DNA from: Cerasicoccus arenae
Lineage (GTDB): Bacteria; Verrucomicrobiota; Verrucomicrobiia; Opitutales; Cerasicoccaceae
DNA: 64,000 bases
Direction: 5' to 3'
Assembly (NCBI RefSeq): GCF_014651635.1
Contig: NZ_BMXG01000002.1
Span: forward strand, 1-64,000
Under the pieces are notes generated by a model, which did no database searches, was not told the origin of the DNA, and saw only the letters and a list, made by a program, of their open reading frames with translations. Shown piece after piece: positions 31,713-50,015 of the stretch (position 1 is its first letter; every line of letters starts with the position of its first letter). Position numbers and translations under genes: made by a program.

Positions 31713-34700
31713 CTAGCGAGCCTCGTAGATATATTGGCTTTCGCCTGCTGGTAGCTGTAGCTCAATTGAATTCTTGAAGGCTGCCGGTCCTTTACGTGCT
31801 TTGATACGTGACCATTGACCGGGCGCGACGATTTTTACCGAACCGCCTGGGCAGTCGTCTGTCGTGCTCACCATTAGTCGGCCTTGGGTCACTTTTAATA
31901 CTGTGGGGAAGTCGCCCTCGAGCTTCAATTTTCCTAGCTGGACTTGCCCTGGTGCACCGAGGATTAGCTCGCGCTCAGCGCCCCTTTCTTTGGCAGCTCC
32001 AGCGGTACCTCCAAAGGTTACTTCATCCATACTGGCCTTTTCATTTTGATCGCTTAAAAACGCATAATCTCGCCCTTGGGGCAGATCCACTCGGATGATT
32101 CGCCGACTCTCGTCTGTTGAAAAAGTTGGCGCTGGATGGTCATTAAAGCGGGGAAACAGGGCGAGGAAATACGAGCCATCATGGGGTAGCTGAAGGTGCA
32201 TGAGGTCTTGGAACTGTTTGTGGTTTTTTTCATGCTGCACATCGCCGCCATAGCGTAAGGTATGACGTGGTGTGCCTTGGGGGGAGGCGATAAAGTATTC
32301 TAGATCAACTCCATATTGCCCGAGGGCGGTGTAGTGATCCCCTGATGGCAATTGATGTGCAGGCTGGGTGGAGTCTCCAAGTTGTTTGCCGAGGCTTGCT
32401 TCGTTACTAGTGAAGAGCCCGTTGGAAAGCGTCCAGAACTGCCAAACCGTGGGTTCTCCCCCAGAGGTGGTGTCCCGTACCACAAGGTAAGCTGGTGCCT
32501 CAGGGTTTTCCTCGCGCATAAAGAGGAATTGTCGATCGACGGTCAGTTGGCCGCTTTGAGCCTCATTTATTTGTGGATATGCTGGCAGGTCGGGCGGTAG
32601 CCAATTGCGATCGTCGCGTTTAGTGTTGGTGCGACTTGTGCGGGTATAGTCGAGGCCGGGGAGTGAGGCGAAAGCAGAAAAATGCGTTGTCGAGTAATAA
32701 CCAAAGGGTAGGCCATTGTTTCCGGGTTGGTAATTGCGGGCTAACTGAACGCCTTCACTCAAGAGTTCATGCCGGTCTTTAGTGCCCGCTAGAATGGTGA
32801 AGCTGGTGCTGAGAGGCTTGCCCAAGGCATACCATTGGGCAATGTCCGTTACGCTGGGTGTCCAGATGTCCAAATTCCGTTCGGAGCCAACGCCGGTCAG
32901 TATGTTGACGAAGCTTTCCTGTGGCGTATTGAATGCTGCTCGGAAAACGGTGCCGAATTGAGGAAAGTTTTCGGAACCCCACTTGGGAGGAGACTGTGGC
33001 AAATTTCGGTCGAGATAGTAGCCAGCGAGCCCACTTAAGCGGAAGTCACCGATTTGTGCGGGGTACCCAGACTGAGCCCATGACCACTGCATTTCGGCGG
33101 AAAAGTCAGGATCACTTTTGGCTGTCATACGAGCTGCGATGCCAATCGTTGCAAGTTGCTCGGCGGCAATGCCTCGACCGTAAGCTGCTGTAGCCCGTTT
33201 GTCGCCTCGTTTGGGGTCCGGCGGCGTGTGCATACGGGCAAAGAAACTGATCAACTTTTTCAAGCGTGAATCGTTCGTGAAATCACGGTAGCCAGCGCGT
33301 TGTGATGCAATGGCGAAGCTGATAATGACTTCTAGGCTGACATTACCATAATGTGAGCCTTCGGGAATCCACTCGCCGGCGGAACCGACTTCCGCAGTCA
33401 GCCAATGATCCAGCCAGTCGCCCGCGTAATTTGCCCAAGTATCTGCCATAGGATGGTCCCGTAATACGCAGGCGACGACCCCAAGCGTGAGAATATAGGA
33501 GCAATGCATATTGGGGTTTCCGGAGCCATATCCTCGTTCTGATGACCAGCACATGGGATCGGCCAATACATAGCCTAAGTAGGCCATTTGAGCCCGGAAT
33601 AGGTTACGCTGCTTCGCGCTTAGTGAGCCTGAATCGATGAGCGTATCATAAAGCCCGGCCGTGGCGATACCTTGGCGCATGACGTCAAAATTACCCAGAA
33701 GTGAGAGCTGTTTACTTAGTTGAGCGATGGCCTTGCCTGCGCGGTCGGTTATCCCTTTCGGTTGACCAATCGCGACTGCTGCGGATGCCCATTGGTTACC
33801 CAGTTGGCTTGAAGGCTGGTTTTGATTGGCTAGTGTGATTTCTGCTGCGTTTAGGAAAAGTAATGGGTGTTGCGCAGTTTCGGCCCAGTCTAGATTGAGG
33901 GACTGAATATGTGCGAGTTGGTCACCTATTAGGGGAGGGGCATTGCTTATGCGCCACTCACGGGCACCACGTGCAAAGTCGGCAATGAGGCTGATTGCTC
34001 CATTTTTCCCATAAACGACGGGCATTCCGCGCTCACGCCAACCGACCCACATTTGCTCAATCATGGGTAGGCTCCACTGCTGTTGGCCAAAATAGGTTTG
34101 GGGGGATGGCGGCGAGACCCAATCTCCTGGCTTACTGGAGGATAATTCCAAGGTTGTCTGCCCGTTGGTGAACACAACATGGGAGGGGTGGTCAGGGAAT
34201 AGCCCTAGCAGGCTGGTATTTGGGCTTAGTTGCAGAAATCCATTGGCCGCCGATGTTGTTTGCAATTGGCGATCCTGTTTTGCCCATTGTCCGTAGCCCT
34301 TTGGCAATGTCACACGCTGGACATTGAATACGTTGGGCAATGCGAATACCAGCTTGGTGTCGGGGTTGTTGCCACTGACAGCCATTCGCCATCGAATGGC
34401 AGAATCTCCTGCGATTATTGTGGCCGTAAACGATGCCAAGGTCTGGTCAGTGAGTTCGTAGCTGATCCTTGTTTTAATATAAACGGGCCCTTCCTCAAGG
34501 ATGCTTGATGACCATTGCTTGATGAGTTGGGGATTTTGCCACTCGCTAGGGGGGGACCATTCACCAGTTCCTAGGCGGAGGCCGAGGAGAGGGGGGGGAG
34601 GGGTGGCATTGCCTTGACCAAGAGGAAGGCGCGCGCTGATCAAGCCAGTGGAGATTTCAATGGAACTGGTGGTGCGATTAACGGAAAGTTGAGGAGTCGT

Positions 34701-34988
34701 GGGCTTGGCAGCGGGTTTATCAACGAGATTGTATGTGGAGGATTCACTTGCGGAAAGTGGGGCTGTGACGAACCAAATATCTTCGCCTGATATCTGATAG
34801 GGGATCGGGCCTTGTGGACCAATCAGGCTGCTGGTGCTTGAAGGATTGGCATTCAGCGGAAAGTGGATAAGCTCCGGACCGTAGTTACGGCCGAGTACCT
34901 CAGTGACTGTATATTCAGCGAGTGGTGTAGAGAGGGCTACAGTAGTTGAGAAAAGCCAGAATAGGAAAAAGTGTAGCGAACGACGCAT
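31713..34988 (-). CDS. Secreted heparinase II/III or alginate-lyase-like polysaccharide lyase
   Basis: From the ATG at 34988 the protein is 1091 residues and opens with a signal peptide (MRRSLHFFLFWLFS, cleavage near LST). A frame extends to 35051, but that part lies in the terminator of the preceding gene. After an N-terminal beta region, an (alpha/alpha)-barrel segment follows about residues 430-680 (GLYDTLIDSGSLSAKQRN, ERGYGSGNPNMHCSYIL, WIPEGSHYGNVSLEVI). A beta-sandwich C-terminal half (FNTPQESFVNILTGVG, HFSAFASLPGLDYTRTS) completes the fold typical of heparinase-like lyases. Catalytic residues are not assigned. It closes the exosortase operon and could trim the polysaccharide made there. 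A G8 tract sits at 34591-34598. Confidence 0.72.
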   Translation of the reverse strand: MRRSLHFFLFWLFSTTVALSTPLAEYTVTEVLGRNYGPELIHFPLNANPSSTSSLIGPQGPIPYQISGEDIWFVTAPLSASESSTYNLVDKPAAKPTTPQLSVNRTTSSIEISTGLISARLPLGQGNATPPPPLLGLRLGTGEWSPPSEWQNPQLIKQWSSSILEEGPVYIKTRISYELTDQTLASFTATIIAGDSAIRWRMAVSGNNPDTKLVFALPNVFNVQRVTLPKGYGQWAKQDRQLQTTSAANGFLQLSPNTSLLGLFPDHPSHVVFTNGQTTLELSSSKPGDWVSPPSPQTYFGQQQWSLPMIEQMWVGWRERGMPVVYGKNGAISLIADFARGAREWRISNAPPLIGDQLAHIQSLNLDWAETAQHPLLFLNAAEITLANQNQPSSQLGNQWASAAVAIGQPKGITDRAGKAIAQLSKQLSLLGNFDVMRQGIATAGLYDTLIDSGSLSAKQRNLFRAQMAYLGYVLADPMCWSSERGYGSGNPNMHCSYILTLGVVACVLRDHPMADTWANYAGDWLDHWLTAEVGSAGEWIPEGSHYGNVSLEVIISFAIASQRAGYRDFTNDSRLKKLISFFARMHTPPDPKRGDKRATAAYGRGIAAEQLATIGIAARMTAKSDPDFSAEMQWSWAQSGYPAQIGDFRLSGLAGYYLDRNLPQSPPKWGSENFPQFGTVFRAAFNTPQESFVNILTGVGSERNLDIWTPSVTDIAQWYALGKPLSTSFTILAGTKDRHELLSEGVQLARNYQPGNNGLPFGYYSTTHFSAFASLPGLDYTRTSRTNTKRDDRNWLPPDLPAYPQINEAQSGQLTVDRQFLFMREENPEAPAYLVVRDTTSGGEPTVWQFWTLSNGLFTSNEASLGKQLGDSTQPAHQLPSGDHYTALGQYGVDLEYFIASPQGTPRHTLRYGGDVQHEKNHKQFQDLMHLQLPHDGSYFLALFPRFNDHPAPTFSTDESRRIIRVDLPQGRDYAFLSDQNEKASMDEVTFGGTAGAAKERGAERELILGAPGQVQLGKLKLEGDFPTVLKVTQGRLMVSTTDDCPGGSVKIVAPGQWSRIKARKGPAAFKNSIELQLPAGESQYIYEAR
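34591..34598. repeat. Homopolymer tract G8
   Basis: Eight consecutive G in the lyase-like gene, read as ATPPPPLLG on the coding strand. Confidence 0.9.
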
Positions 34989-34995
34989 GACACAT

Positions 34996-35031
34996 AAAAA
35001 AAGCGTGCTTGGATTTAACCAAGCACGCTTT
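34996..35031 (-). terminator. Strong terminator after PEP-CTERM2
   Basis: A perfect 13-base stem (35000-35012 with 35019-35031; AAAGCGTGCTTGG and its complement) closes a six-base loop and is followed on the minus strand by seven T. The T-run ends eight bases before the ATG of the lyase gene. Confidence 0.92.
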
Positions 35032-35052
35032 ATGAAAGATTTGCTCTGCAAT

Positions 35053-35931
35053 TTAGCTGGCTACTTCTTCTGTTGTTGCGATGGCCTTCTTGGCGCGGCG
35101 GCGATAGATGAAGTAGCCGAGGGCTACGAAACCGAGTCCAGCAATGTAGGTAGAAGGCTCAGGAACTGCAGCGATGCTGATATTATCGAGGCCTACACCT
35201 TGAACTGCGTTACCAGTGCTGACCACACCGAGTAGGTAGTAATCATACGTTGTTGCGCCAGCAATTGAGAAATTCTGCGTTTCCCATGCTGGTGCAGCAT
35301 CGGTGCTTAGACTTGAAACGGCACTAAGATTCGTATTGATAATGCTGGTGAAGCCGAAGCCTGCAGGGTCATTAATATGATAACCTTGTCCGAGGATGGA
35401 ATTACTCGATAAGGCCGTTGCCAAAGCCGTGGCATCGCCGGTAAATCCGTAAAGTGCAAATTGAACGTTTGCCGTATTGTTGATGTTTGCACCCGTAGTG
35501 GTAACAACGCCAGCGTCAGCTGTGTTGTAATCACTGAATACTGCAGCGTCGAAAGAAATGTCCGTTACGAAACCACTTTCACCGATTGCATCCATCGAAA
35601 AAAGATTCCATGCAGTTGTGCGGCCTGCTGCTGAAGCTGTACCGTTGGTAGCGAGGAAGAAGCCGCCGCCTCCATTGCCAGAAGTCGAATCTGTTAGATA
35701 GCTGCCGTATTGGCTCGGAACAGTCGTGTTTGAAAGACCATTGAAGATACGATTTGGATTATCTGATCCAATCCAGCCACCGTTTAAGTCGCTGCTTTCA
35801 ACATGCACGAGTCCACCGCCTGTACGATAGGCTGGTGAATTGAAATCGCCACCGACGATTATGCCAGCAAAAGCGGATGATGCGGTAGCGGAAAGTGCAC
35901 AAATTCCAATGATCTTCGTATAATTGTTCAT
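35053..35931 (-). CDS. PEP-CTERM sorting-domain protein 2
   Basis: The 292-residue protein has a signal peptide (cleavage near SAFA, residue 22), then a Gly/Ser/Thr/Asn-rich beta-type domain with no Cys, and ends with a standard PEP-CTERM sorting signal: VPEPSTYIAG at 256-265, a hydrophobic segment, and the basic cluster YRRRAKK. A ten-residue tail ATTEEVAS extends beyond the basic cluster, which is longer than usual. The exosortase 2.3 kb upstream on the same strand is the expected processing enzyme. A likely surface or matrix protein of unknown function. The strong terminator just after it suggests high, self-contained expression. Confidence 0.92.
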   Translation of the reverse strand: MNNYTKIIGICALSATASSAFAGIIVGGDFNSPAYRTGGGLVHVESSDLNGGWIGSDNPNRIFNGLSNTTVPSQYGSYLTDSTSGNGGGGFFLATNGTASAAGRTTAWNLFSMDAIGESGFVTDISFDAAVFSDYNTADAGVVTTTGANINNTANVQFALYGFTGDATALATALSSNSILGQGYHINDPAGFGFTSIINTNLSAVSSLSTDAAPAWETQNFSIAGATTYDYYLLGVVSTGNAVQGVGLDNISIAAVPEPSTYIAGLGFVALGYFIYRRRAKKAIATTEEVAS

Positions 35932-35964
35932 AGTAGTAGTACCTGTTGCAGATTTATAATTTAT

Positions 35965-35995
35965 TCACATTGAGATTTTCCTCATGTGAAGTCAA
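35965..35995 (-). promoter_or_regulatory. -35-like element and inverted repeat upstream of PEP-CTERM2
   Basis: On the minus strand TTGACT (35995-35990) is followed directly by TCACATGAG, six spacer bases, and CTCAATGTGA, an inverted repeat with one bulged base (35965-35989). A repressor or activator could bind here. The -10 is unclear. Confidence 0.45.
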
Positions 35996-36134
35996 GGCCT
36001 TACACGATTGATTTTGTGGAATTTAATTTTGCTCTATAATTACCTTGTTTTAGTATTCAGTGATCCAGTATGATTTGAGCTAAACTATTTTAAATCAGTG
36101 CTTTAGAAGTGTTTTTGGGGTTCGAGGCTGGGCG

Positions 36135-38228
36135 TTATTTTTTTCCCTCTAGAAAGAGTGCCTTTTCATTGGGAAGGATGGCCGTTGAAATGTCTGGCAA
36201 ATAGCTAAGATCACCAGTGACAGCGGCATATGCTAGGCGATGATGGCTAGATAGAACTTCTGGTTGGTATTGCATCGGCAATGATTTCAGGACTGCCTGC
36301 GCCATTTTTTCATGACCTGACTGGAAGTAAGCAAAGGCTAATGTGATGTAACAGTAGTATATTTCAGGGAACTCCTCGATGAACTGTTCGCTGTAGTAGC
36401 GACATTTTTCTAGATCCAGGCCAAACTGTAACTTCAGATAAATGATTAGGCTCATTGAGTCTGGGTCACCTTTGAATTGATCCAGATTAACATGCTTCAG
36501 GATCGTCTTGAGTTCATCGCTAAGGCCGAGAGCATATAGCAGTTCGACGTATTTGCGTATGGTGTAGGGGTTGCTATTGGTCAGGCCATATAACTCTCGA
36601 TAAAATACCAGCTGCTGATGTGGTGAGGTGTAGGTTTTGACAAGGAACTCGATTTCGCCCCAATCACTCACATCGGATTCATCGATGGCTTGGAGCATTT
36701 CCAGGGTGTAGCCTTCATTGTTGCCCTCATATAAGTGGATGAAACTTTTCCAAAAGTGTTTGTCCGACTCGTTGAGCGCGCTGTTCTTAGTATTAATATC
36801 CACTAATTCCTTGGCGCGCTCGATATCTGGGCTATCCGACATGATCAGTGAGTAAAGTAAATGACGGCAGAGATCACGGTCCCGTCGAAGATCATTTTCA
36901 GTGATCAGTATATCGCTGACATCCCCAATGTGGAAAAAATTAAGGACACCAAATACCGACTTTCGCTCATCAGAGTCCTTCAGGTCATACTCTTCCAGAA
37001 TGGACCGCAGGGCTTCTTCGCGGCCTAATTGTCCAGCTTCATAAGCGCGTCCAACGGCTAGAGTGATATGCTCGCGATTGGAGTCTGGATGTTTGCGTAG
37101 GTGCTCTAGAATGGCCAGGTAGTCAAAGGCATTGTCCCCTTGGTTTTCGGCGATACTTTGAGAGAGTGCGATTTCGCAAAGATAGAGGCCAATATCGTCC
37201 ATGCGCATCAAATTATCGCGATGGTGCTGTTTGCTTTGTTCTGCGATAGCTGGATCGTCATTATTCGCGAGGCCAATAATGATGTCGTGAACGAGGGGCG
37301 TTTCCATCCCTTTTGCGTACATTTCGCGAGCACGTGTGAGTGCGCGATTACGATGTCCTTGCGCAAGGAGTAACTTGAGTTCGGTGTCGATGACTTGCTG
37401 TGAATCTGGATGCTGGGCTTGTAGGCGTGCCAAATACTTGGCACCAGTCGGCACTTGATGATAATCTACTGCATAATCAATGACCTTAGCCATGCTCGGA
37501 GCATCAAATTGCTTTTGTTTGGTCATTTGCTCGCTCCACCAGACGGCTTCTGCGGTTTCCAATGAACGAGCAGTCTCCATGGTGCGTTCGAGCACTGATG
37601 TATTGGTTGGATTGAGTAAGGCCGCGCTACGTAGTTTTTCGTAGGCTTTTACTTCGTAGTCCTGATCTTCAAGAGTTTGTGCCTCCTGCACCAATTGATC
37701 AGAGCGCCATTGCTTTGCCTCGTCTATCACCCACCTACTACTGATCAAAAAACCGATGCCAACGAGCAGGACTAGTATCGTTAGAATACGGGTAAGCATC
37801 CGCATCGCCAGCCATCGGTTGAACAGGCCCTCGAAGATGTCAATTATCGCTAACAAGATAGCAATATAGGACCCCCAAATTCCGGCGAGGATGCTCTTCA
37901 GTGACATGGAACTGACGTATGTCCATGCCCCTTTCATTTGCCGGAAGGCACGTTTGGGTGAGGTTATGAGGTCCCAAAGGAAATGGAGTAACTTTTGTGG
38001 TATCTCCAGTAATTGATCCTTCAGCTTGTTAAGCGCCTCTTTCCTCTCATGTTGTCGTGTGCGGCGCGCGTTTGGCAGTGCCTCTTTCCACAACTTGAGC
38101 ATATAGAACTGATCATCAATCCATGCAAAGACTGACTTGATCTGATTTTTCAGGCCAAAGCGGAGATAGGCTCCAATGTCAGCAAGTGTGTCTTTTATTC
38201 GAAAGAATAATTCTTGGAAGAAATTCAT
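36135..38228 (-). CDS. Membrane-anchored TPR protein A2, exosortase locus
   Basis: This 697-residue protein has a basic, helical N-terminal cytoplasmic part (1-105), two hydrophobic segments (about 111-131 and 145-165), and a periplasmic C-terminal region of about 520 residues built from degenerate TPR-like helix pairs. It is a clear paralog of the 711-residue protein at 41511-43646: shared segments include AVWWSEQM/TVWWSERV, PTGAKYLARL/GTGARYLSVM, QQLVFYRELYG/QQLAFYRELFG and VTGDLSYLP/VSGDLSNLP, in the same order. It follows the exosortase by 18 bases. It may scaffold exosortase or the polysaccharide machinery. The family is not recognised. Confidence 0.8.
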   Translation of the reverse strand: MNFFQELFFRIKDTLADIGAYLRFGLKNQIKSVFAWIDDQFYMLKLWKEALPNARRTRQHERKEALNKLKDQLLEIPQKLLHFLWDLITSPKRAFRQMKGAWTYVSSMSLKSILAGIWGSYIAILLAIIDIFEGLFNRWLAMRMLTRILTILVLLVGIGFLISSRWVIDEAKQWRSDQLVQEAQTLEDQDYEVKAYEKLRSAALLNPTNTSVLERTMETARSLETAEAVWWSEQMTKQKQFDAPSMAKVIDYAVDYHQVPTGAKYLARLQAQHPDSQQVIDTELKLLLAQGHRNRALTRAREMYAKGMETPLVHDIIIGLANNDDPAIAEQSKQHHRDNLMRMDDIGLYLCEIALSQSIAENQGDNAFDYLAILEHLRKHPDSNREHITLAVGRAYEAGQLGREEALRSILEEYDLKDSDERKSVFGVLNFFHIGDVSDILITENDLRRDRDLCRHLLYSLIMSDSPDIERAKELVDINTKNSALNESDKHFWKSFIHLYEGNNEGYTLEMLQAIDESDVSDWGEIEFLVKTYTSPHQQLVFYRELYGLTNSNPYTIRKYVELLYALGLSDELKTILKHVNLDQFKGDPDSMSLIIYLKLQFGLDLEKCRYYSEQFIEEFPEIYYCYITLAFAYFQSGHEKMAQAVLKSLPMQYQPEVLSSHHRLAYAAVTGDLSYLPDISTAILPNEKALFLEGKK

Positions 38229-38246
38229 ACTGAGCCGCTAGTGGAG

Positions 38247-39797
38247 TTACCTGGCTTCATCCTTATTTAATGCCTCATGGATGAATCGATAAAGAGTGTC
38301 CTCTTCATTGGTTGATGAAGGGGAGGTGACTCCGATTAACAGGAGCTGTCGGGTCACCATGCTGTTTTCGTCAATACGATCCCAGAAATTTCGATATGAC
38401 ATTTTTAACTTATCAAACCATCCACTCGATGCTTGCAGGTAGAACTGGTTATATTTCTGCGTGCTTACTGGCAACATGAGGCTACGGTAGACGGCGATGC
38501 GCTCCGAGCTGATTGGATGCTGGAATTCGTAGCTCTCATACTCGGTGTCATCCCATGGCTGCTGGAGCATGTGTACCTCACGTGGTTTGGTGGTCAACAT
38601 GCCTTCCACTGTCCCCATGCAAACCTCAGGCGTATGTGCATTGGCCCGCATGACAGGGTAGCCATCCGTCCAAGTGATGAAGAAATAATTCACCAAGCTT
38701 TCACCCACGAGAAATTGGCCCGAATAGACATCTTCCGTTTCGTAAAGTGTCTTCACCAGTGGATCGACTTTCAGGGTGCGATGGGCTGGTAATTTGCTTA
38801 ACTGCGTAGGATCGATTTCCCAGTGGTCGCCATTATTCAGCTCTGGCATGTTATACCATTGCCAGCGAAAGAACTCGACTCCTCCGTAGGCTAGCAGAGC
38901 GAGCATAGAGAGTATCGAGCACCAGCGTGAGACAGGGAAGGTACTTGGTTTAGCTGCTGGTTTGGCGGACTTGTTATTCTTGGGCTCGATAATTAGAAAT
39001 GCGATAAAGACCACGCCTAGTCCGAAGACAAAGGTGATCGCGCCAGTGTTGTCATGCCAGCGATCATAGGCTTCGGAGCCTTCGATGCCAGTGATCCAAC
39101 CAAGGGCCAGAGCACGGATTGCATTTTGTACGAAAGAGGCACACATGCCAGCGATCAACAAGGCGATACGACGGGGCATTGAAAGCTGACCGTATTCGCC
39201 CAGAAAGAGCGTTGTAACGAGTAAGAATTGGAGGGATCGAATCCCACTACATGCCTCGGCGACCTCCACAACTGCATCGCCAATGGATATTTGGATGCCC
39301 TGAAGCATGGCGGGGATGCCGAGCATTTGAAGGGAAACAGTAACAAAGTTAGCAATGTGGCCGGTCAGCCAATCGCTGACTGCCATTTCGATGCGCCCAG
39401 GCCATGGAATTGATGTTAGAAAGAAAACTAAAGGGAACAGATAATGCCGGGACCAACGTACTCCGCCCCAAGCCATTCCCCAGAATATCCCAAAAGCGGC
39501 GAGGCAAAGACCCTCTGACCAACTGAGCATGTGCCAAGTGCTCATCGTTTCCCACAGCACTCGAATTATCGCGAATAGCCCGAGGAAAAACATAGCTGGA
39601 ATCAGCCAACCAAACGTAGGCAGGCTACGCGGAGGTTCGTCTTCTGCTCGCGTCCAAAAAAGAAAGAGGCTCAGGACTGGCACTCCCCAGCCGAAGAAAT
39701 AGTGCGAATCTGGGTCCCAGAAACCACATATCTGGTAATAGAACGCGAATTGAAGCAACAAAGGTAGCAGCCAGATCTTAAGGGTCGCAGTACTCAT
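38247..39797 (-). CDS. Exosortase fused to EpsI-like domain
   Basis: The 516-residue protein has eight or more membrane segments. The exosortase catalytic triad is visible: C183 in EVAEACSGIRSL, R228 in FVQNAIRALALG and H248 in DRWHDNTGA. After residue 280 a new membrane segment and a periplasmic domain follow with AHTPEVCMG (H388-C393), the EpsI motif, so exosortase and EpsI are one chain. Exosortases cleave and transfer PEP-CTERM proteins, two of which are encoded in this operon. The gene starts 2 bases after TPR-B2, so they are tightly coupled. The named Xrt subfamily cannot be assigned by eye. Confidence 0.93.
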   Translation of the reverse strand: MSTATLKIWLLPLLLQFAFYYQICGFWDPDSHYFFGWGVPVLSLFLFWTRAEDEPPRSLPTFGWLIPAMFFLGLFAIIRVLWETMSTWHMLSWSEGLCLAAFGIFWGMAWGGVRWSRHYLFPLVFFLTSIPWPGRIEMAVSDWLTGHIANFVTVSLQMLGIPAMLQGIQISIGDAVVEVAEACSGIRSLQFLLVTTLFLGEYGQLSMPRRIALLIAGMCASFVQNAIRALALGWITGIEGSEAYDRWHDNTGAITFVFGLGVVFIAFLIIEPKNNKSAKPAAKPSTFPVSRWCSILSMLALLAYGGVEFFRWQWYNMPELNNGDHWEIDPTQLSKLPAHRTLKVDPLVKTLYETEDVYSGQFLVGESLVNYFFITWTDGYPVMRANAHTPEVCMGTVEGMLTTKPREVHMLQQPWDDTEYESYEFQHPISSERIAVYRSLMLPVSTQKYNQFYLQASSGWFDKLKMSYRNFWDRIDENSMVTRQLLLIGVTSPSSTNEEDTLYRFIHEALNKDEAR

Positions 39798-39799
39798 GT

Positions 39800-41506
39800 C
39801 TAGGAATTGAGCCTTTGCTTGGCTTCCAATAATAATGCACGCTCTTCTGGTAACAAGGCGCTTTCTGATATGCTTAGCGAGATTGCCCGGGCTTCGCCTA
39901 ATTGGTTATTTCCTAAGGCGACTAACAGAGTAATCAATTGGCATGAGGGCAGAGGACGGTATTTATCAGGTAGTTGATCAAGAGCCTCTTGGGCAGCCTG
40001 GAAATCGCCATCACGCCATAAGGCTAAGGCATAAGTTGACCAGATGAAGCCATCCAGTTCCTTGATGATCTTTTCAGACGGATATGGGATGGGACCCTCT
40101 TGGACATCCAGCAGTGCCTCCAGATAGAATCGATTGTTGAGCATAACGCTGTGTTTGGGATAGACGTCGAGAAAGAGCCGAACGTCTTCTAATGCTTGCT
40201 GGGTACGCCCAATCTGCAGTTCAGCGTTGAACTTCTCTTGTAAAAGTTGAGCACGTGCGACTGGTGACTCTGTGGATTCTAATGCTGCGGAAAAACTTGC
40301 AAGTGAGTCTTTCCACCAGCGTGACCTTGCGGCTAATCGGGCCAGTGTGGTCAGCGCGTTGGCGTCTCCAGACTCCATTGCCAAGCTTTGTGCACTATAC
40401 CAGTATTGGGTCGGCTCGGGAGGCGTTTCAGTTAGTTGATCATTCTCGATCAGTGCCAAGAGCGTCGCTCGTTGTAATTTATTAACTCGACTGTCGGAAT
40501 GCACATTAGTGAGTAGCTTTTGAGCTTCCTGAAAATTCCCCTGATCCAGCGCGACTTTTAGATTTAATTCGAATTTTTGGTCAGGATTTAGCCCACGCGC
40601 GTCTTTACTCAGTAAGAACTGCTGAAGTTCTGGAATGGCCCGAATGCTAAGCAGCCATGGAGCGACATAGTCCGGGGCTGATTTTCCGTATTGCTTGATC
40701 CCATCCTGGATAATGCGCTCACGCTCTTCTGGCTTTAGAATAAGCTCTTGGTTTGAGGCGAGCAATCCAGTGCTGGCATTATTTTTAGAACTGTCGCGAA
40801 GTTCTCGAATTAGCCATGTTCGGTCATTATTGAACAGTGGTATCTCAGGTCGTGTGGCTAAAAGGATTAACGCTTCCGTGCCAACGGAACTATTATCGCG
40901 GGCGGCCTCACGCAAATTCACCTTGGCCTGCACGTAGTTGGCAAAAGAGTCTAGCCCGAGCAATAACTTTGCCCGCAAGAGGCGAGCTGATGAATGATCG
41001 GAATCAATCGCGAGCAATCGATCAAGCACGATTAAGGACTCCGCGGTTTGGTCCATCTCGTATTCGTATCGTGCCCACCAGTAAAGGTAGTCTGGCACGT
41101 GATTCAAATTATGGTAGTGCTTCTTAATCGCTTGGTCTGCCTGTTCATATAGCTTCGATTCGATCGCGATGCTTAAGTATGAGACAGTGTTCTCTTGGTA
41201 GTCCTCTGCGTTTGCATCCTCCATCAATGAATCGAGGATTTTAAGGGCTTCCTGCGGATCTTTCGCTTTTAGATTCAGTGCTTTTAGCTGTTGGACTTCA
41301 CGTTTGCGCAAGCTGAGTTTCTCGAGGGTTGCGGAGCGCTCTGTTGCTTCACTGGTACTGCCCTCAGAAACGTTTTTCCGCAGTGCCTCAATTTGCTTTT
41401 CCTGCCAAAGATACCACGATAAGATGCCGCCGCCAAGTACGAGTGCTAGCAATAAGAAAACTGGAAGGAACTTGAGCTTCCCTAAGCGTTCTGGAAATAA
41501 CAACAT
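39800..41506 (-). CDS. Membrane-anchored TPR protein B2, exosortase locus
   Basis: From the ATG at 41506, four bases after the TPR-A1 stop, the protein is 568 residues; a TTG at 41530 is also open. It has one N-terminal membrane segment (about 12-34, PVFLLLALVLGGGILSWYL) and a long helical repeat region with TPR-like pairs. It is a paralog of the protein at 44622-46316: ATRPEIPLFNNDRTWLI corresponds to GSRPEIKLFPDERLWLV, and AKVNLREAA to AKAALKEAA. It lies directly upstream of the exosortase. The function is unknown; a scaffold role is likely. Confidence 0.8.
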   Translation of the reverse strand: MLLFPERLGKLKFLPVFLLLALVLGGGILSWYLWQEKQIEALRKNVSEGSTSEATERSATLEKLSLRKREVQQLKALNLKAKDPQEALKILDSLMEDANAEDYQENTVSYLSIAIESKLYEQADQAIKKHYHNLNHVPDYLYWWARYEYEMDQTAESLIVLDRLLAIDSDHSSARLLRAKLLLGLDSFANYVQAKVNLREAARDNSSVGTEALILLATRPEIPLFNNDRTWLIRELRDSSKNNASTGLLASNQELILKPEERERIIQDGIKQYGKSAPDYVAPWLLSIRAIPELQQFLLSKDARGLNPDQKFELNLKVALDQGNFQEAQKLLTNVHSDSRVNKLQRATLLALIENDQLTETPPEPTQYWYSAQSLAMESGDANALTTLARLAARSRWWKDSLASFSAALESTESPVARAQLLQEKFNAELQIGRTQQALEDVRLFLDVYPKHSVMLNNRFYLEALLDVQEGPIPYPSEKIIKELDGFIWSTYALALWRDGDFQAAQEALDQLPDKYRPLPSCQLITLLVALGNNQLGEARAISLSISESALLPEERALLLEAKQRLNS

Positions 41507-41510
41507 AACA

Positions 41511-43646
41511 CTACAGGGCAGGCTTATCAATGGTCATTGACTGCAAGAGCGATTTCTCGCCTTGAGTTGGCAATTGGTCAATGGTGGGGAGGTTGCTTAA
41601 ATCACCGCTGACATAGGCATGCATTAGTCTAATACATGGCTGCGCATTCTGAGGAGGCGGAGGTATTTCACTGTCGATGGATCGGGCAAGTGAAAATTCA
41701 TCGGACATAGCGTAAACGAAGGCTAGGTTACGATAAAACAAAGCCGCCTTTGGATACTGACCAATCAATTTTTCCAGCCGCGTTCGAGTTTCTGGCAAGT
41801 TACGCCCTTGAACCGCATGCAAATAGAGGAGGAAATTTAGGGCATCCGGTTTATTCTCAAAGCGCTCGGGCTGAAGTTGCTTTAGAAGTATTTTCAATTC
41901 TTGGTCTTTGCCCAGTGCATATGCCAGCGTCAGATATCGTTCGGCCGCGATAACAGGGCTTTCCGGGCGCCCAAACAATTCGCGATAAAATGCCAATTGC
42001 TGCTCGGTGCTGGTGTGTTTTACCAAGATGCTGTGCATGTAGTCCCAATCACTGGTGGCCGAATTTTCTACGGACTGTAAAAGGCGAACAGAGAATTCCT
42101 TTTCCTGCTGTCGCGCGTTGGCGATCATTGCCTGCCAGAATCGTCGGTTGGCTTCGCTGATAGGTAGTGGGTGTTCCTGCTCGCCCGAAAGTAAGAGCGT
42201 GGCCGCATCGAGATCAGCCTGTTCGGAAAGAATTAACCATTCCAAGTAGGCGAGTGCATAATCAGGGTTTGAGTAAATTTTAGTTTCTGAGATCAATTGA
42301 TCTCGGCCCCAGTAAATTTCGAATCTGCTTAGTGTGTTCAATGCGTTTAGCACTTCATCGTCATTGTTTAGGTCGTACTCAGCAATGATTGCCTTGAATG
42401 CCTCTTCTTCTGATATTTGTCCAGTAAAGGACGCAAATCCATTGGCTTCTATTCGGTCCATTCGTGTGGCTGAAGGATGAGCCAAAATGAGTTTACGTAT
42501 AGACCGATCGCCCAGATCGATTTTTTCACGCTCTTCTGGTGGTAGGCGTTGAGCCAGTTTGCAAAACTCTAAACCGATGTCGTTTTGTTGTTCCAAGCCA
42601 TCGCTTAATTGTTTTCGCGCATCTTGCTTGAGGCGTTCATCACTCGTGCGAAGTGAGAGTTCTACAAATACCCGATTGGCTAGTGGGCTATCGCTTCCTT
42701 CTTTTACAAGTTTAGCAGCCTTGAGTAGGGCTTGTTCTCGAAGTTCCTGTCGGAGCAGTAGTTCGATTTCCACATCGGCAAGTGTCGTGCTTTCTGGGAA
42801 GCGTGAGCGCATGACTGATAAATAACGTGCGCCAGTGCCCAATTGCCCATAGCTCATCGACTGTTCGACAATATTGACTAGGGAATCCGAGTCGTAGTGC
42901 TTACTGCGAGCCACTCTCTCGGACCACCAAACAGTATGAGGGTGCCGGAGCTTATTGGCGAGATTCATGGTTTGCTCTAGATTTTCATGCACGTCTGGTG
43001 CAAGCATTGCGGCGACGCGAGATTTCTCGTATGCTAGCTTTACCTGTTCTGTCTCCATGAGTGATTTTGCCTGATCATGGAGCTTGGAGGCACGCCATAA
43101 TTTTGCCTCATGAAATAGATATGGACTGGCAACGAGGCCCACGGAAGCCGCCACTAGAAATGCCCCAGAAAGGACGCGTAGCCACACCTTTTGTTTCTTC
43201 CACCATTTAATGAACTTTTGTGGTAGGCGTGCAATGTAGCCAAGTATCGCTAAGTAAAGCCGCCAAGATTCCAGTAAGAATTCACGGAACGTTAGCTTAC
43301 GCAGTTTTTTGTATGTCGAGCGTAGCGACTTAATGCACTGCCCCGGTATTTTTACGAGGAAAGCAATGCTATTGCTAATCCGATCACGGATCTTTTGTGG
43401 TGCCTTGGCTATTGAACGGTTGAGCTTTTGGTTCGCCTTTTTACGATCCTGCTCTCGATACATCTTTCTTACTGGCTGACTTTCTCGCCAGCGACGGTAA
43501 GTATCTCCTAGTTTACGCCAAGACTTTATGAGCTTTCGTCGACGCTGAGGCAGCACCTGCGTCCGGAAATAATATAAATCGTCTAAGCGCTTTTTTATCC
43601 AAGACTGAGACTTTTTTTTCCGGTGAGTCTTCATCGGATTAGACAT
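41511..43646 (-). CDS. Membrane-anchored TPR protein A1, exosortase locus
   Basis: The 711-residue protein has a very basic N-terminal 150 residues (many KK, RR and RW pairs), a membrane segment at about 155-175 (VLSGAFLVAASVGLVASPY), and a long TPR-like helical C-terminal region. It is a paralog of TPR-A2, with a conserved tail (VSGDLSNLPTIDQ) and matching motifs throughout. The gene follows PEP-CTERM1 after a 130-base gap containing a terminator. The start at 43646 could also be the second Met (MKTHRKKK). Confidence 0.8.
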   Translation of the reverse strand: MSNPMKTHRKKKSQSWIKKRLDDLYYFRTQVLPQRRRKLIKSWRKLGDTYRRWRESQPVRKMYREQDRKKANQKLNRSIAKAPQKIRDRISNSIAFLVKIPGQCIKSLRSTYKKLRKLTFREFLLESWRLYLAILGYIARLPQKFIKWWKKQKVWLRVLSGAFLVAASVGLVASPYLFHEAKLWRASKLHDQAKSLMETEQVKLAYEKSRVAAMLAPDVHENLEQTMNLANKLRHPHTVWWSERVARSKHYDSDSLVNIVEQSMSYGQLGTGARYLSVMRSRFPESTTLADVEIELLLRQELREQALLKAAKLVKEGSDSPLANRVFVELSLRTSDERLKQDARKQLSDGLEQQNDIGLEFCKLAQRLPPEEREKIDLGDRSIRKLILAHPSATRMDRIEANGFASFTGQISEEEAFKAIIAEYDLNNDDEVLNALNTLSRFEIYWGRDQLISETKIYSNPDYALAYLEWLILSEQADLDAATLLLSGEQEHPLPISEANRRFWQAMIANARQQEKEFSVRLLQSVENSATSDWDYMHSILVKHTSTEQQLAFYRELFGRPESPVIAAERYLTLAYALGKDQELKILLKQLQPERFENKPDALNFLLYLHAVQGRNLPETRTRLEKLIGQYPKAALFYRNLAFVYAMSDEFSLARSIDSEIPPPPQNAQPCIRLMHAYVSGDLSNLPTIDQLPTQGEKSLLQSMTIDKPAL

Positions 43647-43706
43647 GTGTACTGTAAACCCGTAAGCATGGCTGAATGTTCCTTGGTTACAAGTGACAAT
43701 CCAATA

Positions 43707-43739
43707 AAAGAGCCTGCGACTATTCGCCGCAGGCTTTTA
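43707..43739 (-). terminator. Terminator after PEP-CTERM1
   Basis: AGCCTGCG (43711-43718) and CGCAGGCT (43728-43735) form an eight-base stem around a nine-base loop. T-rich bases follow on the minus strand. It lies within the 130-base gap before TPR-A1. Confidence 0.8.
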
Positions 43740-43776
43740 TGTTTGAAATTAAAGAAATTTTACTTTGCTTAAGCGA

Positions 43777-44583
43777 TTAAGCATTTTTCTTGGCCTTCTT
43801 CCGACGATAGCAGACGAATGCACCGAGCATAATCGCTGTTGCGCCAGCCATGTAAGTAGATGGTTCAGGGATTGCTTCCACAATGCCATTAAACTGAACG
43901 AAGTCGTTGTTTATGCTGGAGAAGGTTGCTCCAGTAGCTGCTCCTCCAGAGTTGCTACCTACGAGATAAAGCGTGTAGTGCTCAGGACCAAAAAAGCTGA
44001 TTGGCAAACGGCCAACAAGATCGAAGGTCAAAGTAAAGGCACCATTTGCTCCTGGAGTTGGTTGAAAGGAGACATCACCTTTGTTGTCTTGGAGCAAAAT
44101 ACCTGAGAGATTCGTTCCAACACCTTGGATGACAATGCTTTCAGGCAAGATTTGGTAACCAATCGGTGCATCAAAAGTAGGAGTCAAGTCGTTCAGAATT
44201 GTAAATTGACCAATTGCTGCGAGCTGTCCAGTTGCTTGACCTGGGTTTGTTGGATTCGATCCAGCTGGATTGACTGTTCCGCCATATGAGTTGGCACCGG
44301 CAAGTGGCTGCATACCAATTTGAATTGGGAAGGTAATCAGCGGTGCAATGGTCAAGCCAAGCGTATTGTTGAAAGTGGCAGTGTTGTTATCAATGATGAC
44401 CTTTGGGTCAAGGCTTGCGCCGCCTGCTGGCTGCCATCCGGCAGTCTCATCAATGTCAGCACCACTGTTAAAGAATGTGAATTCAGCCAAAGTGGCCGCA
44501 TTAAGGGATGCCGCGCTTGCAGCAGAAATTGTCAGTATTGATAGTAGCTTGGTTGCCGAGTAGCTCATAGTGCCAGTAAACAT
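43777..44583 (-). CDS. PEP-CTERM sorting-domain protein 1
   Basis: The 268-residue protein starts at ATG 44583 (MFTGTMSYSATKLLSIL); a second Met at 44568 would give a more standard signal peptide. Cleavage is likely near SLNA. The mature domain is beta-type, rich in Gly, Pro, Asn and Thr and without Cys. The C-terminus is IPEPSTYMAG (238-247), a hydrophobic stretch and YRRKKAKKNA, a classical PEP-CTERM signal. It lies inside the exosortase operon and is a probable target of the exosortase. A terminator follows it. Confidence 0.92.
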   Translation of the reverse strand: MFTGTMSYSATKLLSILTISAASAASLNAATLAEFTFFNSGADIDETAGWQPAGGASLDPKVIIDNNTATFNNTLGLTIAPLITFPIQIGMQPLAGANSYGGTVNPAGSNPTNPGQATGQLAAIGQFTILNDLTPTFDAPIGYQILPESIVIQGVGTNLSGILLQDNKGDVSFQPTPGANGAFTLTFDLVGRLPISFFGPEHYTLYLVGSNSGGAATGATFSSINNDFVQFNGIVEAIPEPSTYMAGATAIMLGAFVCYRRKKAKKNA

Positions 44584-44621
44584 AGATATTTCTAAAATTC
44601 TGTAAAGTATATTCTCAGCAA

Positions 44622-46316
44622 TTATTTACTTGGATTTAGCGATTTTAGAGCCTCTTCCCTGAGTGATTTTTCTTCAGGAAGTAAGTTTTCTGGATTGATT
44701 TGGCTGATAATTTCAATCGCTTGTTCTTGGTTGCCAAGTTTCCCCGTGATAAGCCCCTTGAGGAGCTTTACGTCGGCTTGCACCTTAAGCCAATCTGGCA
44801 AGTCTTCGATTTTCTGCTGGGCTAAGGCATAGTCGCCATCGAGATAAAGCAGGAAAGCATAAGTCGCGTTGAGAGATTTTACCTGATTCTCCTCAATCAG
44901 TTTTGCAAACTGTTGGGTTTGGTTTTCGTTCTCCAGCCCTAAGAGAGCTCGGAAATAAAAGTAATTATTTTGGAAGACAGGGTTAAATGGGAAAAGCTCG
45001 CGCAATTCAGTGGATACTTTGAGTGCTTCGGCAGTTTTTCCTCGGGCTAAGAGCACGCTTAAGTATTCCCGTTTGGCATTCGCTTTCATCAGCTGATCTG
45101 TGGACAGGTCAATCGTGATCAGATAGGCTTTTTCTGCTTTTTCCCACCATTCTTTGCTTCCAGCAGCACGCGCTAGAGCAAGCATGGAGGCCTGTTCTTG
45201 GCTTTTTTCGGCCATCGAAAAGGCTTCGTCCCAAGCTTGAGCGGAATTCGCGCCAATCGAATTTAGCCCAATCAGGGCCTGAAGTGTTTTGCGCTGGATG
45301 TCATTAGCGGCGGAGTAATCAACGTCTAGTAGCTCCTTGATTCGCTCAAGGTCTTGGTCTTGCAGAGCGAGTCGGTACTGCAAAACCCACAATTCAGGGC
45401 TCGCAGAAATATCTACACGATCTAGAAACTCACGCGCTATTTCCGGTTCATCTACCGCTAAGAGCCACCGCCCTACGACTAAAGGCGTTTGGTTGCCGTG
45501 CTGGGAAATTGTTTGGGTGACGATTTCTTTTTTGCGAGCCTCATCAAGCATGATCTTCTGGGTCGCAGCCATAAGATGTGCCTCAACATTGGCATATGGG
45601 TGATTTTCTATCTTTTGGACAAGCCAGAGTCGTTCGTCTGGAAAAAGCTTAATTTCTGGCCGTGAACCCAGTGCAATAATTGAATCTAGTCCGTATTTGT
45701 CAGGCATTTGGGCCGCTTCTTTTAGGGCCGCCTTAGCTTCGATCCAATTGGTCACTCGAGGTTGACTAAGGAGTATCTGCGCCCGAATCCATTGGGCTTC
45801 AGAATTGTTTGGCGATATCTTTAGTAGATAGGTGAGTTCTTCCATGGCTTGCGCCAGATTACCTTGTTGCGCTAATCTCCGGGCATGGAGCATCATGTAA
45901 TTGATGTTTTCACCCATACTCGGTGCCATGAGTTTAATGATGGCGTCAGCTTGGTCTCCTCGGCCAAGTTTGATACATAGATCTAAGTAAATCAGAGCAC
46001 TTTCTTGGAAGGCCTCGCCATTTGGGTCTTTTATGAGCTTCTCCAGAGCTTGGATCGCCGATTCAGGGTCCTGTTCTCGAATAGCGGCTGCGAATAAATA
46101 ATCATTCACTGGAGAACCAGGCTGAAGAATGCGGAGGAATCGAATATTTGAGAGCGCGGCGTCCCATCTGCCTTTTCGGATGTTCAGTTGTACTTGCTCT
46201 AGCTCATAGTTTAGCCAATTGGCCCAACCGAAATAGGAGACGCATGTTCCCATGAGGACTAACAATATTATTCCGAGCCATTTGGGCGGTTTTTTCTTCG
46301 AAGATCGCTTAGCCAT
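44622..46316 (-). CDS. Membrane-anchored TPR protein B1, exosortase locus
   Basis: The 564-residue protein starts with the basic stretch MAKRSSKKKPPKWLG, one membrane segment (about 14-33) and then TPR-like repeats up to the C-terminus (ending EEKSLREEALKSLNPSK). It is a paralog of TPR-B2 along its length. It is eight bases downstream of the O-antigen ligase-like gene and 38 bases upstream of PEP-CTERM1. The function is unknown, but the B/A pairing around sorting genes suggests a shared role. Confidence 0.8.
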   Translation of the reverse strand: MAKRSSKKKPPKWLGIILLVLMGTCVSYFGWANWLNYELEQVQLNIRKGRWDAALSNIRFLRILQPGSPVNDYLFAAAIREQDPESAIQALEKLIKDPNGEAFQESALIYLDLCIKLGRGDQADAIIKLMAPSMGENINYMMLHARRLAQQGNLAQAMEELTYLLKISPNNSEAQWIRAQILLSQPRVTNWIEAKAALKEAAQMPDKYGLDSIIALGSRPEIKLFPDERLWLVQKIENHPYANVEAHLMAATQKIMLDEARKKEIVTQTISQHGNQTPLVVGRWLLAVDEPEIAREFLDRVDISASPELWVLQYRLALQDQDLERIKELLDVDYSAANDIQRKTLQALIGLNSIGANSAQAWDEAFSMAEKSQEQASMLALARAAGSKEWWEKAEKAYLITIDLSTDQLMKANAKREYLSVLLARGKTAEALKVSTELRELFPFNPVFQNNYFYFRALLGLENENQTQQFAKLIEENQVKSLNATYAFLLYLDGDYALAQQKIEDLPDWLKVQADVKLLKGLITGKLGNQEQAIEIISQINPENLLPEEKSLREEALKSLNPSK

Positions 46317-46324
46317 GAGGTCAA

Positions 46325-47764
46325 TTAGTCGTAGTAACTTGTTTTTTCCTTACTGGGACCCAAGCTGAGGCGGGCACATGCCCCAAAGCAGACTGCAAAG
46401 AGCGCAATGCCTGCGGAAGGGCCAAATGGAAAATCAAATGAGGCAAAACTCAGGAACAGCCCGATCGAAAAAGCAAGCCAGTACGATTCAGGGCTTTTCC
46501 GTGGGCGTCGAAAAGTTAGTACGATTATCCCGACTGGCACTGAGAGAAACAGAACGTAGCCGACAGTGCCTAACTCGACCCAATATTGCATCCAGTCATT
46601 GTGAGCATACTCGTTTCGTTTAACGATTTTTCCAAGCGGATGGCGGTATTCAGGGCCTGCATATTGGTAAAAAACATAGGCATAGGAACCTAAGCCCCAG
46701 CCCCACACTGGACGGTCTTTTACCATTTTCCAGCAGTCCCGAGGCGAGGCGTAAAAGCGCTGATCTATGCGCCCTTGTCCAATTTCTTCTTTGGTTTTTT
46801 CTAGGCGGTAATTCAGATTATCCCATACTAGGGCGAAACCAACGAAACTAAAAATGGCGAGGAAAGCCAGGAGAGAAATGCCTAAAGCTTTTCTTGTCTG
46901 TCGTTCTAAATGGGAAAAAATTGATGTGCGCCGTCGATAGGCGAACACCAAATAAGCTCCGCTGCCAAAGATAAACAAGGCAGAGAAAATCATTCCCGAA
47001 CGTGATCCCGATAGAGGGATACTCACCCAAATGATGGCTGCAATTGTGACCCATACGATATCCCACCGCTGTCGTCCCCGCACATTCCATCCGGTGCGGT
47101 TGTAGTGTTGGATGTAGTTGTCGGCTACTGTAACTGCGCTGCCTAATGACAGAAGGGCGAATGCAACCCAGTGATTGTAATATCTAAAGCTCGAATAAAA
47201 TCTTGGGTTTACGGCTTCAAACATACCCAGCACTTCTGGGTTGTGCGTTATCTTGAACCAAGCGCCAATTACGGCAAGGATGACCCCATTTATCCCAATC
47301 AGGCTTAGTAGCGTTATCACTTGCTTCTTCTGTTGGATGATTGTGAATACGCTCGTGGCGGTGATAAGCGCTCCAATGAAAATCCAGATGTATTCCTGTG
47401 TTCTGATTGGGTTGAAGCACACGGGAATGCCAGCGATTGGTTCAATGCTATCCCATACAACGAATGCCGATTCGGTGTTGTTTTGTGGCTTCCTCATTGG
47501 GTTTAGGTAGCCAACTACGAGTTGGGTGATCAGCAATAGCCATGGTGAGAGACATAGCGCCCATTTTTTGAAGCCGTGACCCTCTCGTTCATACCAGTAA
47601 CGTATGAGCGGTATCAGGCCTAGCCACGCGATCGATCCAATATAAAAAGAGCTACCTGGGTAGCGCCCTCCCAGAGCCCAACTGGAAAACACGATCAGGG
47701 CGACGGCTTGCCCGGTTGCCAGCTTTACCGTAATGCCAGATGGTGAAGGTGAGTGCTGGTGCAT
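46325..47764 (-). CDS. O-antigen ligase/polymerase-like membrane protein
   Basis: From the ATG at 47764 the protein has about 479 residues and ten or more membrane segments. The periplasmic-loop motif NEYAHNDWMQYWVELGTVGY near the C-terminal third is the Wzy_C/WaaL signature with its His. It could polymerise polysaccharide, or transfer it onto a lipid or protein. The longer frame to 47815 begins with TTG and would run through a terminator. The start codon is immediately next to the terminator T-run. It is eight bases upstream of TPR-B1. Confidence 0.85.
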   Translation of the reverse strand: MHQHSPSPSGITVKLATGQAVALIVFSSWALGGRYPGSSFYIGSIAWLGLIPLIRYWYEREGHGFKKWALCLSPWLLLITQLVVGYLNPMRKPQNNTESAFVVWDSIEPIAGIPVCFNPIRTQEYIWIFIGALITATSVFTIIQQKKQVITLLSLIGINGVILAVIGAWFKITHNPEVLGMFEAVNPRFYSSFRYYNHWVAFALLSLGSAVTVADNYIQHYNRTGWNVRGRQRWDIVWVTIAAIIWVSIPLSGSRSGMIFSALFIFGSGAYLVFAYRRRTSIFSHLERQTRKALGISLLAFLAIFSFVGFALVWDNLNYRLEKTKEEIGQGRIDQRFYASPRDCWKMVKDRPVWGWGLGSYAYVFYQYAGPEYRHPLGKIVKRNEYAHNDWMQYWVELGTVGYVLFLSVPVGIIVLTFRRPRKSPESYWLAFSIGLFLSFASFDFPFGPSAGIALFAVCFGACARLSLGPSKEKTSYYD

Positions 47765-47796
47765 AAAAAAAGCTGGAGCGCATTTTGCGCTCCAGC
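47765..47796 (-). terminator. Strong terminator after FecR-domain gene
   Basis: A perfect 11-base stem GCTGGAGCGCA/TGCGCTCCAGC closes a three-base loop, followed on the minus strand by seven T (47771-47765). The ATG of the next gene begins at the very next base (47764). Confidence 0.92.
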
Positions 47797-47820
47797 AATT
47801 TAAATTTTTTGCCAATCAAC

Positions 47821-49943: not shown

Positions 49944-50015
49944 AGCTAGTGTAATGCAGTTAGTTGCAGTTTGGATTAGAGATAGCGTGAATTCAGATAG
50001 TCGCAAGGCTAATTT

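Follow-up and report, generated by a model that had tools for sequence, protein, structure and literature searches.

Two TPR protein families accompany a lineage of long exosortases in Cerasicoccus arenae and related Verrucomicrobiota

A 64,000-nucleotide stretch of the Cerasicoccus arenae genome (assembly GCF_014651635.1, contig NZ_BMXG01000002.1, positions 1 to 64,000; "the window" hereafter means this full stretch) carries a locus in which an exosortase stands among genes for PEP-CTERM proteins and for two kinds of large tetratricopeptide repeat (TPR) proteins, here called A and B. Gene neighbourhoods and trees give good support for the inheritance of the A/B pair together with this exosortase lineage across families, and we consider it somewhat better than an even chance that A and B are ancient paralogous TPR proteins forming the substrate-loading part of a sortase, together with a lineage of long exosortases that have an EpsI-like tail. 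The seven genes lie on the minus strand where the original prediction had placed them, in the order B1, PEP1, A1, B2, exosortase, A2, PEP2:

44622..46316, minus strand: B1, TPR protein of 564 aa with one N-terminal hydrophobic helix near residue 14, then a predicted TPR solenoid; genus ortholog group 1
43777..44583, minus strand: PEP1, PEP-CTERM protein of 268 aa that scores below the Pfam cut-off; tail PEPSTYMAG...YRRKKAKKNA
41511..43646, minus strand: A1, TPR-like protein of 711 aa with a Lys/Arg-rich N-terminal arm of ~150 residues, a hydrophobic helix near residue 154, and a predicted solenoid over residues 181-700; no Pfam match
39800..41506, minus strand: B2, second B copy, TPR protein of 568 aa counted from ATG (576 from the listed TTG start); immediately before the exosortase
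38247..39797, minus strand: exosortase of 516 aa, PF09721 domain over residues 17-267 with Cys183, Arg228, and His248; C-terminal EpsI-like part with H388-x-P-x-x-C-M
36135..38228, minus strand: A2, second A copy, TPR-like protein of 697 aa; immediately after the exosortase; second hydrophobic segment near residue 110
35053..35931, minus strand: PEP2, PEP-CTERM protein of 292 aa, tail PEPSTYIAG...YRRRAKK...

Genes A1, B2, exosortase, and A2 are tightly packed, with gaps of 4, 2, and 18 bases. A1 and A2 are homologous over nearly their whole length (193 of 652 positions identical, 30%; 303 bits, E 4e-97), as are B1 and B2 (155 of 541, 29%; 187 bits, E 1e-56), which bears out what had been proposed from motifs shared in the same order. 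TPR bias was rejected as the source of this likeness because the control comparison of A1 with B1 reached just 26 bits (E 0.004). Treating A and B as one family at the locus was likewise rejected, given that background-level score and their two separate clades in the trees; comparison of the A and B profiles gave a distant relation (95% probability) that may be mostly TPR. Neither family carries a specific Pfam or NCBIfam label.

The link to the exosortase was examined in 103 genomes of the order, which were searched with A, B, and PF09721 and in which the surroundings of the matches were inspected. Counts based on PF09721 refer to the matches listed, namely nearly all long exosortases (open frames of ~500 aa or more) and a sample of short ones, with four long exosortases of 471-496 aa left out (G022:C67, G071:C23, G070:C8, and G089:C42; the letters L, G, C, and f mark loci, genomes, contigs, and families as labelled in this analysis). 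Among them, in a tree of 97 exosortases with outgroups, the window exosortase falls in a clade of 10 from four families (Shimodaira-Hasegawa-like approximate likelihood-ratio test, SH-aLRT, 98), all of which have a TPR neighbour and seven of which have two adjacent ones. With the fourth genome of the genus added to this clade, A and B both lie within 5 kb of the exosortase at 9 of 11 loci, counting L089, where B is cut by the contig end, and L082, where B is in two pieces; the two remaining loci are L088, at a contig edge, and L068, with B 20 kb away. The exosortases outside the genus are 21-23% identical to that of the window, so the layout of A, B, and exosortase is old. Eight loci whose exosortase was missed by hidden Markov model (HMM) or open reading frame calling stand outside the tree (L017, L086, L150, L151, L152, L154, L164, and L171); a TPR gene adjoins the exosortase at L086 (the same locus as L264), a weak TPR match occurs at L151, and the other six have none.

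Among the matches listed, a TPR gene lies within 300 bases of 28 of the 65 exosortases of at least 440 aa vs 1 of the 32 shorter ones (Fisher 3e-5), and that single short exosortase is cut by a contig end. Within the same set, exactly one TPR neighbour accompanies each exosortase of two sister clades of eight and three more within a clade of six from family f14, and a clade of 19 long exosortases has no adjacent TPR gene. In a tree of the TPR proteins, which left out rows below 300 aa or 100 bits, the A copies fall into one clade and the B copies into another (support 99 and 96). A larger TPR tree placed 20 of 20 A-side and 22 of 22 B-side proteins in their own clades, with two unlinked proteins also in the A clade and three single neighbours from Verrucomicrobiales/Akkermansiaceae-type genomes also in the B clade; it left out several duplicates as well as L209_5 and L222_0, which are A fragments truncated at contig ends, and is not a fully separate test because the labels of its new loci came from HMM scores.

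A scan of named genomes with the exosortase clade returned 33 loci, eight of which repeat earlier contigs and 25 of which are others. Nine of the 12 new long exosortases from Verrucomicrobiota have one A-type and one B-type neighbour, as assigned by HMMs that were not trained on them; within these nine, two have A cut by a contig end and two come from a single metagenome-assembled genome. The same kind of scan with three A copies gave no match. A search of 387 genomes of the phylum with the A profile (E<=1e-8, few candidates scored per genome) matched 23 genomes, mostly through other TPR relatives, and 12 of the 29 returned loci have an exosortase within their 1.5-kb flank.

Within the genus, exosortases 67% identical to that of the window occur in C. 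maritimus and C. frondis, and each of four Cerasicoccus genomes has three full-length A and three B genes. The locus reads B1-PEP1-A1-exosortase-1100-aa protein in genomes G094 and G103, and in G069 the genes B1-PEP1 lie 20 kb from A1-exosortase-1100-aa protein. PEP1 orthologues adjoin B1 in all three relatives, and B2 before and A2-PEP2 after the exosortase are found in the C. arenae genome alone among the four. The proposal of an old block duplication, with a substrate in one copy and the exosortase in the other, holds for the age of the duplication and is not borne out as a description of the usual layout, since none of the sister genomes has a second pair at this place. A recent block duplication in the window genome is not supported, as A2 and B2 branch outside the close groups. 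Based on the trees, A2 and B2 are an old lineage of their own; the place of A2 differs from tree to tree, and B2 has no firm position in the B tree. In G069 (contig C5:167470-189399, with ~20 kb between PEP1-B1 and A1-exosortase), a gene that by eye resembles an LpxA-type acyltransferase adjoins A1.

The trees of A and B show the same grouping, namely group 1 (the copies at the exosortase), group c (pairs in convergent orientation), and group d (an unlinked A and an unlinked B). The third A/B pair of the window genome, on contig C18 (L013:8687-12533), is convergent on a contig without an exosortase match and groups beside d with support of 80/75 for A and 94/95 for B. When the distance table of the 12 A proteins is set against that of the 12 B proteins, the correlation is 0.947, the highest of 1296 within-genome assignments (next 0.930 and 0.815). 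Position decided which A and B were paired, except for the d pairs, which were matched by elimination, and six of the 1296 assignments do no more than relabel whole groups. Together with the shared grouping, the top correlation of 0.947 indicates that A and B multiplied as a unit and that even separated genes were kept in step; the idea of A and B as partners, for which these mirror trees and the tie to one exosortase lineage across families both speak, has thus fared well. The C18 pair adjoins genes that look by eye like fabG and fabF, and a gene for a PEPSTYI-type PEP-CTERM protein lies ~6 kb off.

Identities across the four genomes at the locus are 67-74% for the exosortase, 62-67% for the FecR-domain protein, 60-72% for the BBP2_2 protein, 54-66% for the Wzy-type protein, 55-63% for the 1100-aa protein, 50-64% for A1, 44-49% for PEP1, and 42-50% for B1. 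Genes flanking the free pairs mostly share 72-96% identity (some 50-68%), as against 40-58% for A and B within a group. Judged by such identities, A and B evolve fast.

The exosortase itself exceeds the PF09721 cut-off (127.8 vs 25.7 bits), and Cys183, Arg228, and His248, which we take to be the catalytic residues, are invariant in 10 of 10 aligned relatives. The catalytic set of exosortases is given as Cys, Arg, and His in the available part of the source (PMC1569441). Eighteen NCBIfam models match the protein, and the sole one over its cut-off is the broad signature TIGR04178 (50.6 vs 23); among these models the protein stays below every curated subfamily cut-off, the best being XrtD (91.2 of 400) and XrtA (89.1 of 208). 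The label "exosortase-EpsI" is sound in its first half and weaker in its second, as the C-terminal part matched neither TIGR02914 nor PF11984 at E<=0.01 and its H-x-P-x-x-C-M motif, invariant in the same 10 relatives, is what points to EpsI. The window genome has five exosortase matches, and neither an A nor a B gene is present in the other four exosortase neighbourhoods (15-17 kb each).

An N-terminal hydrophobic helix is present in 18 of 18 A and 17 of 18 B proteins, the exception being a cut B, and the part before this helix is basic in all 18 A and most B proteins. A simple lipobox pattern was not found in the first 40 residues of these 18 A and 18 B proteins (one B being N-terminally cut). 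In A1, the arm before the helix is ~150 residues long with 46 Lys and Arg and 9 Asp and Glu; such arms of A are long in Cerasicoccus, 85-117 residues in f2 and f19, and nearly absent in f21. The charge and hydrophobicity of these regions suggest that A and B are anchored in the inner membrane by the N-terminal helix, with the TPR solenoid in the periplasm. AlphaFold2 models of A1 and B1, computed as single chains from two-sequence alignments, predict solenoids with a mean predicted local distance difference test (pLDDT) score of 76 for A1 (~87 over residues 181-700 and <50 across much of the arm) and 79 for B1. Searches of PDB sequences with A and B returned generic TPR matches and nothing more specific. 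A match to the basic arm of A alone lies on contig C7 of the window genome (52868-53044, E 3.5e-4).

A and B stand on either side of the exosortase at 15 of the 18 loci holding both genes; the exceptions are L073 and L188 (B1-PEP1-A1-exosortase) and L213 (B and a PEP-CTERM gene on one strand, A and the exosortase on the other). In loci of the f19/f2 type, A and the exosortase form a tandem pair whose members either share a few bases or are separated by 18, with B facing the pair; in those of the f21 type, it is B that stands in tandem with the exosortase, and A is oriented convergently. Wherever the contig of an f19/f2-type locus extends far enough, a PEP-CTERM gene stands immediately before B and in the same direction, and at these six loci outside the genus its product has an HExxHxxGF motif:

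L079:12805-13926, PEP-CTERM protein with HExxHxxGF
L080:6264-7400, PEP-CTERM protein with HExxHxxGF
L082:833-2002, PEP-CTERM protein with HExxHxxGF
L211:11027-12220, PEP-CTERM protein with HExxHxxGF
L218:11018-12199, PEP-CTERM protein with HExxHxxGF
L222:3469-4650, PEP-CTERM protein with HExxHxxGF

The four that were tested match matrixin weakly, under the Pfam cut-off. HExxHxxGF is a metalloprotease motif, and the protein that has it is apparently a dedicated substrate. At the window locus, PEP2 exceeds the Pfam PEP-CTERM cut-off (24.4 vs 20.7 bits) and PEP1 falls under it (17.5 bits), with an ending, IPEPSTYMAG...YRRKK, that consists of a PEP motif, a hydrophobic stretch, and a basic end; alignment of PEP1 with PEP2 is confined to the last 71 columns, which are the sorting signal. 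The window genome has 54 PEP-CTERM matches over the Pfam cut-off, of which 40 tails were taken (six unparsed, one parsed doubtfully, and L268 repeating the L013 protein). The 36 distinct tails read fall into a shorter PEPSTYAL type and a longer PEPSTY[IML] type: in eight of them PEPSTY is followed by I, L, or M and the tail runs for 30-36 residues from PEP, and the others have a different residue there and extend up to 29, a narrow gap given that PEP1 has 30. Both PEP1 and PEP2 are among the eight, the other six coming from 34 tails, and the PEP1 orthologues are similar. It is a weak guess from these endings that the long PEPSTY[IML] tails might be the substrates handled by the window exosortase.

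The exosortase active site lies in the periplasm. If A and B load substrates, one solenoid of the pair would dock on the exosortase and the other would wrap the periplasmic portion of a dedicated PEP-CTERM protein whose C-terminal helix had yet to leave the membrane, such that the PEP motif could be presented to the active-site cysteine; the extra A/B pairs of Cerasicoccus may serve other substrates in trans. In this scheme we infer both the contacts made by A and B and their role in loading.

Several observations weigh against such a role or against a strict tie to the exosortase lineage. The original prediction had raised the question of whether A and B always lie beside an exosortase, and this is so at the 9 of 11 and 9 of 12 loci described above and not for the free pairs in Cerasicoccus, where the stretch covered (1.5-kb flanks for the third B of G103, L199) holds no exosortase for 7 of 12 A and 7 of 12 B genes, and 20 kb separate another B from its exosortase. 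Common occurrence of A and B without an exosortase, which had been named as what would speak against the idea, is thus partly seen, and, with the C18 pair, within the window genome itself. Two long exosortases from named genomes near the A/B lineage (L210 and L214) have no TPR neighbour and a third (L228) has a single one, and the three long exosortases of Nitrospira (L232-L234) have no TPR gene nearer than ~4 kb. The division by length is not clean either, as a short open frame in G045 has a TPR match 72 bases upstream, and ten of the 25 named loci have short exosortases, three of which (L221, L225, and L227, in Verrucomicrobiales-type genomes) have one B-like neighbour. Cerasicoccus joins the A/B lineage in the exosortase tree with outgroups, whereas in a tree with more relatives and no outgroup it sits on a long branch between the A/B side and the side with one or no TPR neighbour, with L210, L214, and six short exosortases also falling on the A/B side of that tree; the position of the root can reconcile the two trees, and the deep placement of the Cerasicoccus exosortases is not firm. 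A2 groups with group 1 (86/86) in one tree and with the free copies in another, and its second hydrophobic segment makes its topology less sure. The best PDB fold matches of A1 and B1 are generic TPR solenoids. Finally, the tandem partner of the exosortase is A or B depending on the lineage, so a fixed division of labour between the two is unsupported.

A and B could instead be polysaccharide-export scaffolds, the type of protein represented by PelB, AlgK, and BcsC, whose position near the exosortase would reflect nothing more than shared membership in exopolysaccharide clusters. We regard this as unlikely. The window locus does run upstream into such a cluster, with a row of glycosyltransferases beyond the following conserved genes, listed here with the gene on the other side of the locus:

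46325..47815, minus strand: Wzy_C/O-antigen-ligase-type membrane protein, neighbour conserved in the genus; the polysaccharide cluster begins here
47821..48699, minus strand: FecR-domain protein, neighbour conserved in the genus
48741..50006, minus strand: BBP2_2 beta-barrel protein, neighbour conserved in the genus
31713..35051, minus strand: protein of 1112 aa with an N-terminal signal-like stretch and no Pfam match; behind the exosortase in sister genomes, 55-57% identity

A neighbour of polysaccharide type, a Glycos_transf_4 protein, also occurs at least at one other locus (L077). However, no polysaccharide gene is present among the six neighbours scanned at the three compact A-exosortase-B loci L079, L082, and L218, which encode a MoxR AAA protein, DUF58 and DUF1501 proteins, a histidine kinase, a cytochrome c protein, and one protein without a match. 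The A and B clades moreover go with the exosortase across families, and the free pairs of Cerasicoccus lie in other surroundings. Coupling of sorting to polymer export, as once suggested for the locus, is accordingly not required, and the unit that travels is the TPR-exosortase-TPR set with its substrate rather than the polysaccharide cluster.

Equally improbable in our view is a general role of A and B as periplasmic TPR adaptors for assembly or quality control, comparable to LapB or LbcA, with the exosortase as one client of several. The free A/B pairs of the genus would fit such a role, as would a third TPR family, related to A and B and unlinked in many genomes, whose window-genome member lies at contig C11:51617-53284 (L018:5612-7285). 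Outside the genus, however, 6 of 8 A-clade proteins in the 103 genomes adjoin an exosortase (a 3.6-kb contig carries one of the other two), and each of the 6 B-clade proteins in the tree has one within 1 kb. Even the unlinked family, strongly present in 20 of the 103 genomes (>240 bits; two exosortase-adjacent matches left out), tracks an exosortase lineage, as it occurs in 16 of the 19 genomes with the neighbour-less exosortase clade vs 4 of the 84 others (Fisher 2e-12, kinship not corrected), with the gene 7.9-8.5 kb from the exosortase in four genomes. LbcA-CtpA of Pseudomonas aeruginosa, in which a periplasmic TPR spiral partners a processing protease and might deliver its substrates, serves as an analogy and no more; that system differs in its unrelated protease, its outer-membrane lipoprotein adaptor, and its single TPR protein. 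B-profile matches to LbcA/PA4667 are weak (E 2e-4 to 4e-4), and template-modelling scores (TM-scores) against LbcA are 0.41-0.42 for the B1 model and 0.24-0.29 for that of A1, a likeness that may be TPR geometry alone.

It is very improbable that A and B are the Verrucomicrobiota version of PrsT (TIGR02917), with a role in the PEP-CTERM system other than sorting, such as the assembly of extracellular polysaccharide or flocs. PrsT, a large proteobacterial TPR lipoprotein tied to PEP-CTERM genes, is defined as a TPR protein of the PEP-CTERM system, and none is listed for Verrucomicrobium spinosum, in the part of the source available (PMC1569441); prsT is required for floc formation in Aquincola according to the accessible text of a second source (PMC9850573). 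A and B have no lipobox, are two distinct proteins rather than one, and directly flank the exosortase, whereas, of 13 genomes, 4 have prsK/prsR in tandem with prsT and 3 have them near EpsH (PMC1569441, same part). Identity of A or B with PrsT was rejected because TIGR02917 has no match over its cut-off of 312.2 in the window genome, the best being 80.5 bits elsewhere, on contig C2, with B1 at 20 bits; 13 of 14 control genomes also matched the model, one of them over the cut-off.

The locus is a variant of the PEP-CTERM/exosortase (EpsH) system, distinct from PrsT, with the A/B pair as its new part. It shares with that system an exosortase domain with Cys-Arg-His, PEP-CTERM genes, and a surrounding polysaccharide cluster, and departs from it in an exosortase that reaches no curated subfamily cut-off and in the added TPR pair. 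Conserved genes beside an exosortase have precedents in the CrtB-associated protein TIGR04533 and the partner of XrtF in Flavobacterium (PMC12188702, available text); these are set apart here by their description, which in that text does not call them TPR proteins. No description of an A/B-type TPR pair beside an exosortase was found in the titles, abstract openings, and passages of the open-licence papers that the searches listed.

Little is known about how an exosortase chooses among many PEP-CTERM proteins and which other proteins it needs. An A/B pair that accompanies a single exosortase lineage across several families and has PEP-CTERM genes within its compact locus offers a small and testable unit for these questions, and it marks out two protein families that have had no specific label. 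That an unlinked TPR family follows another exosortase clade suggests that the long exosortases here generally have TPR partners. We tentatively raise the possibility, which we hold to be less than even, that the long exosortases of Verrucomicrobiota are multi-subunit sortases that use an A/B pair, a single TPR neighbour, or an unlinked TPR protein depending on the lineage. If so, the TPR partner, and not just the exosortase, would determine which of a genome's many PEP-CTERM proteins are chosen, and duplicated A/B pairs would widen the range of substrates.

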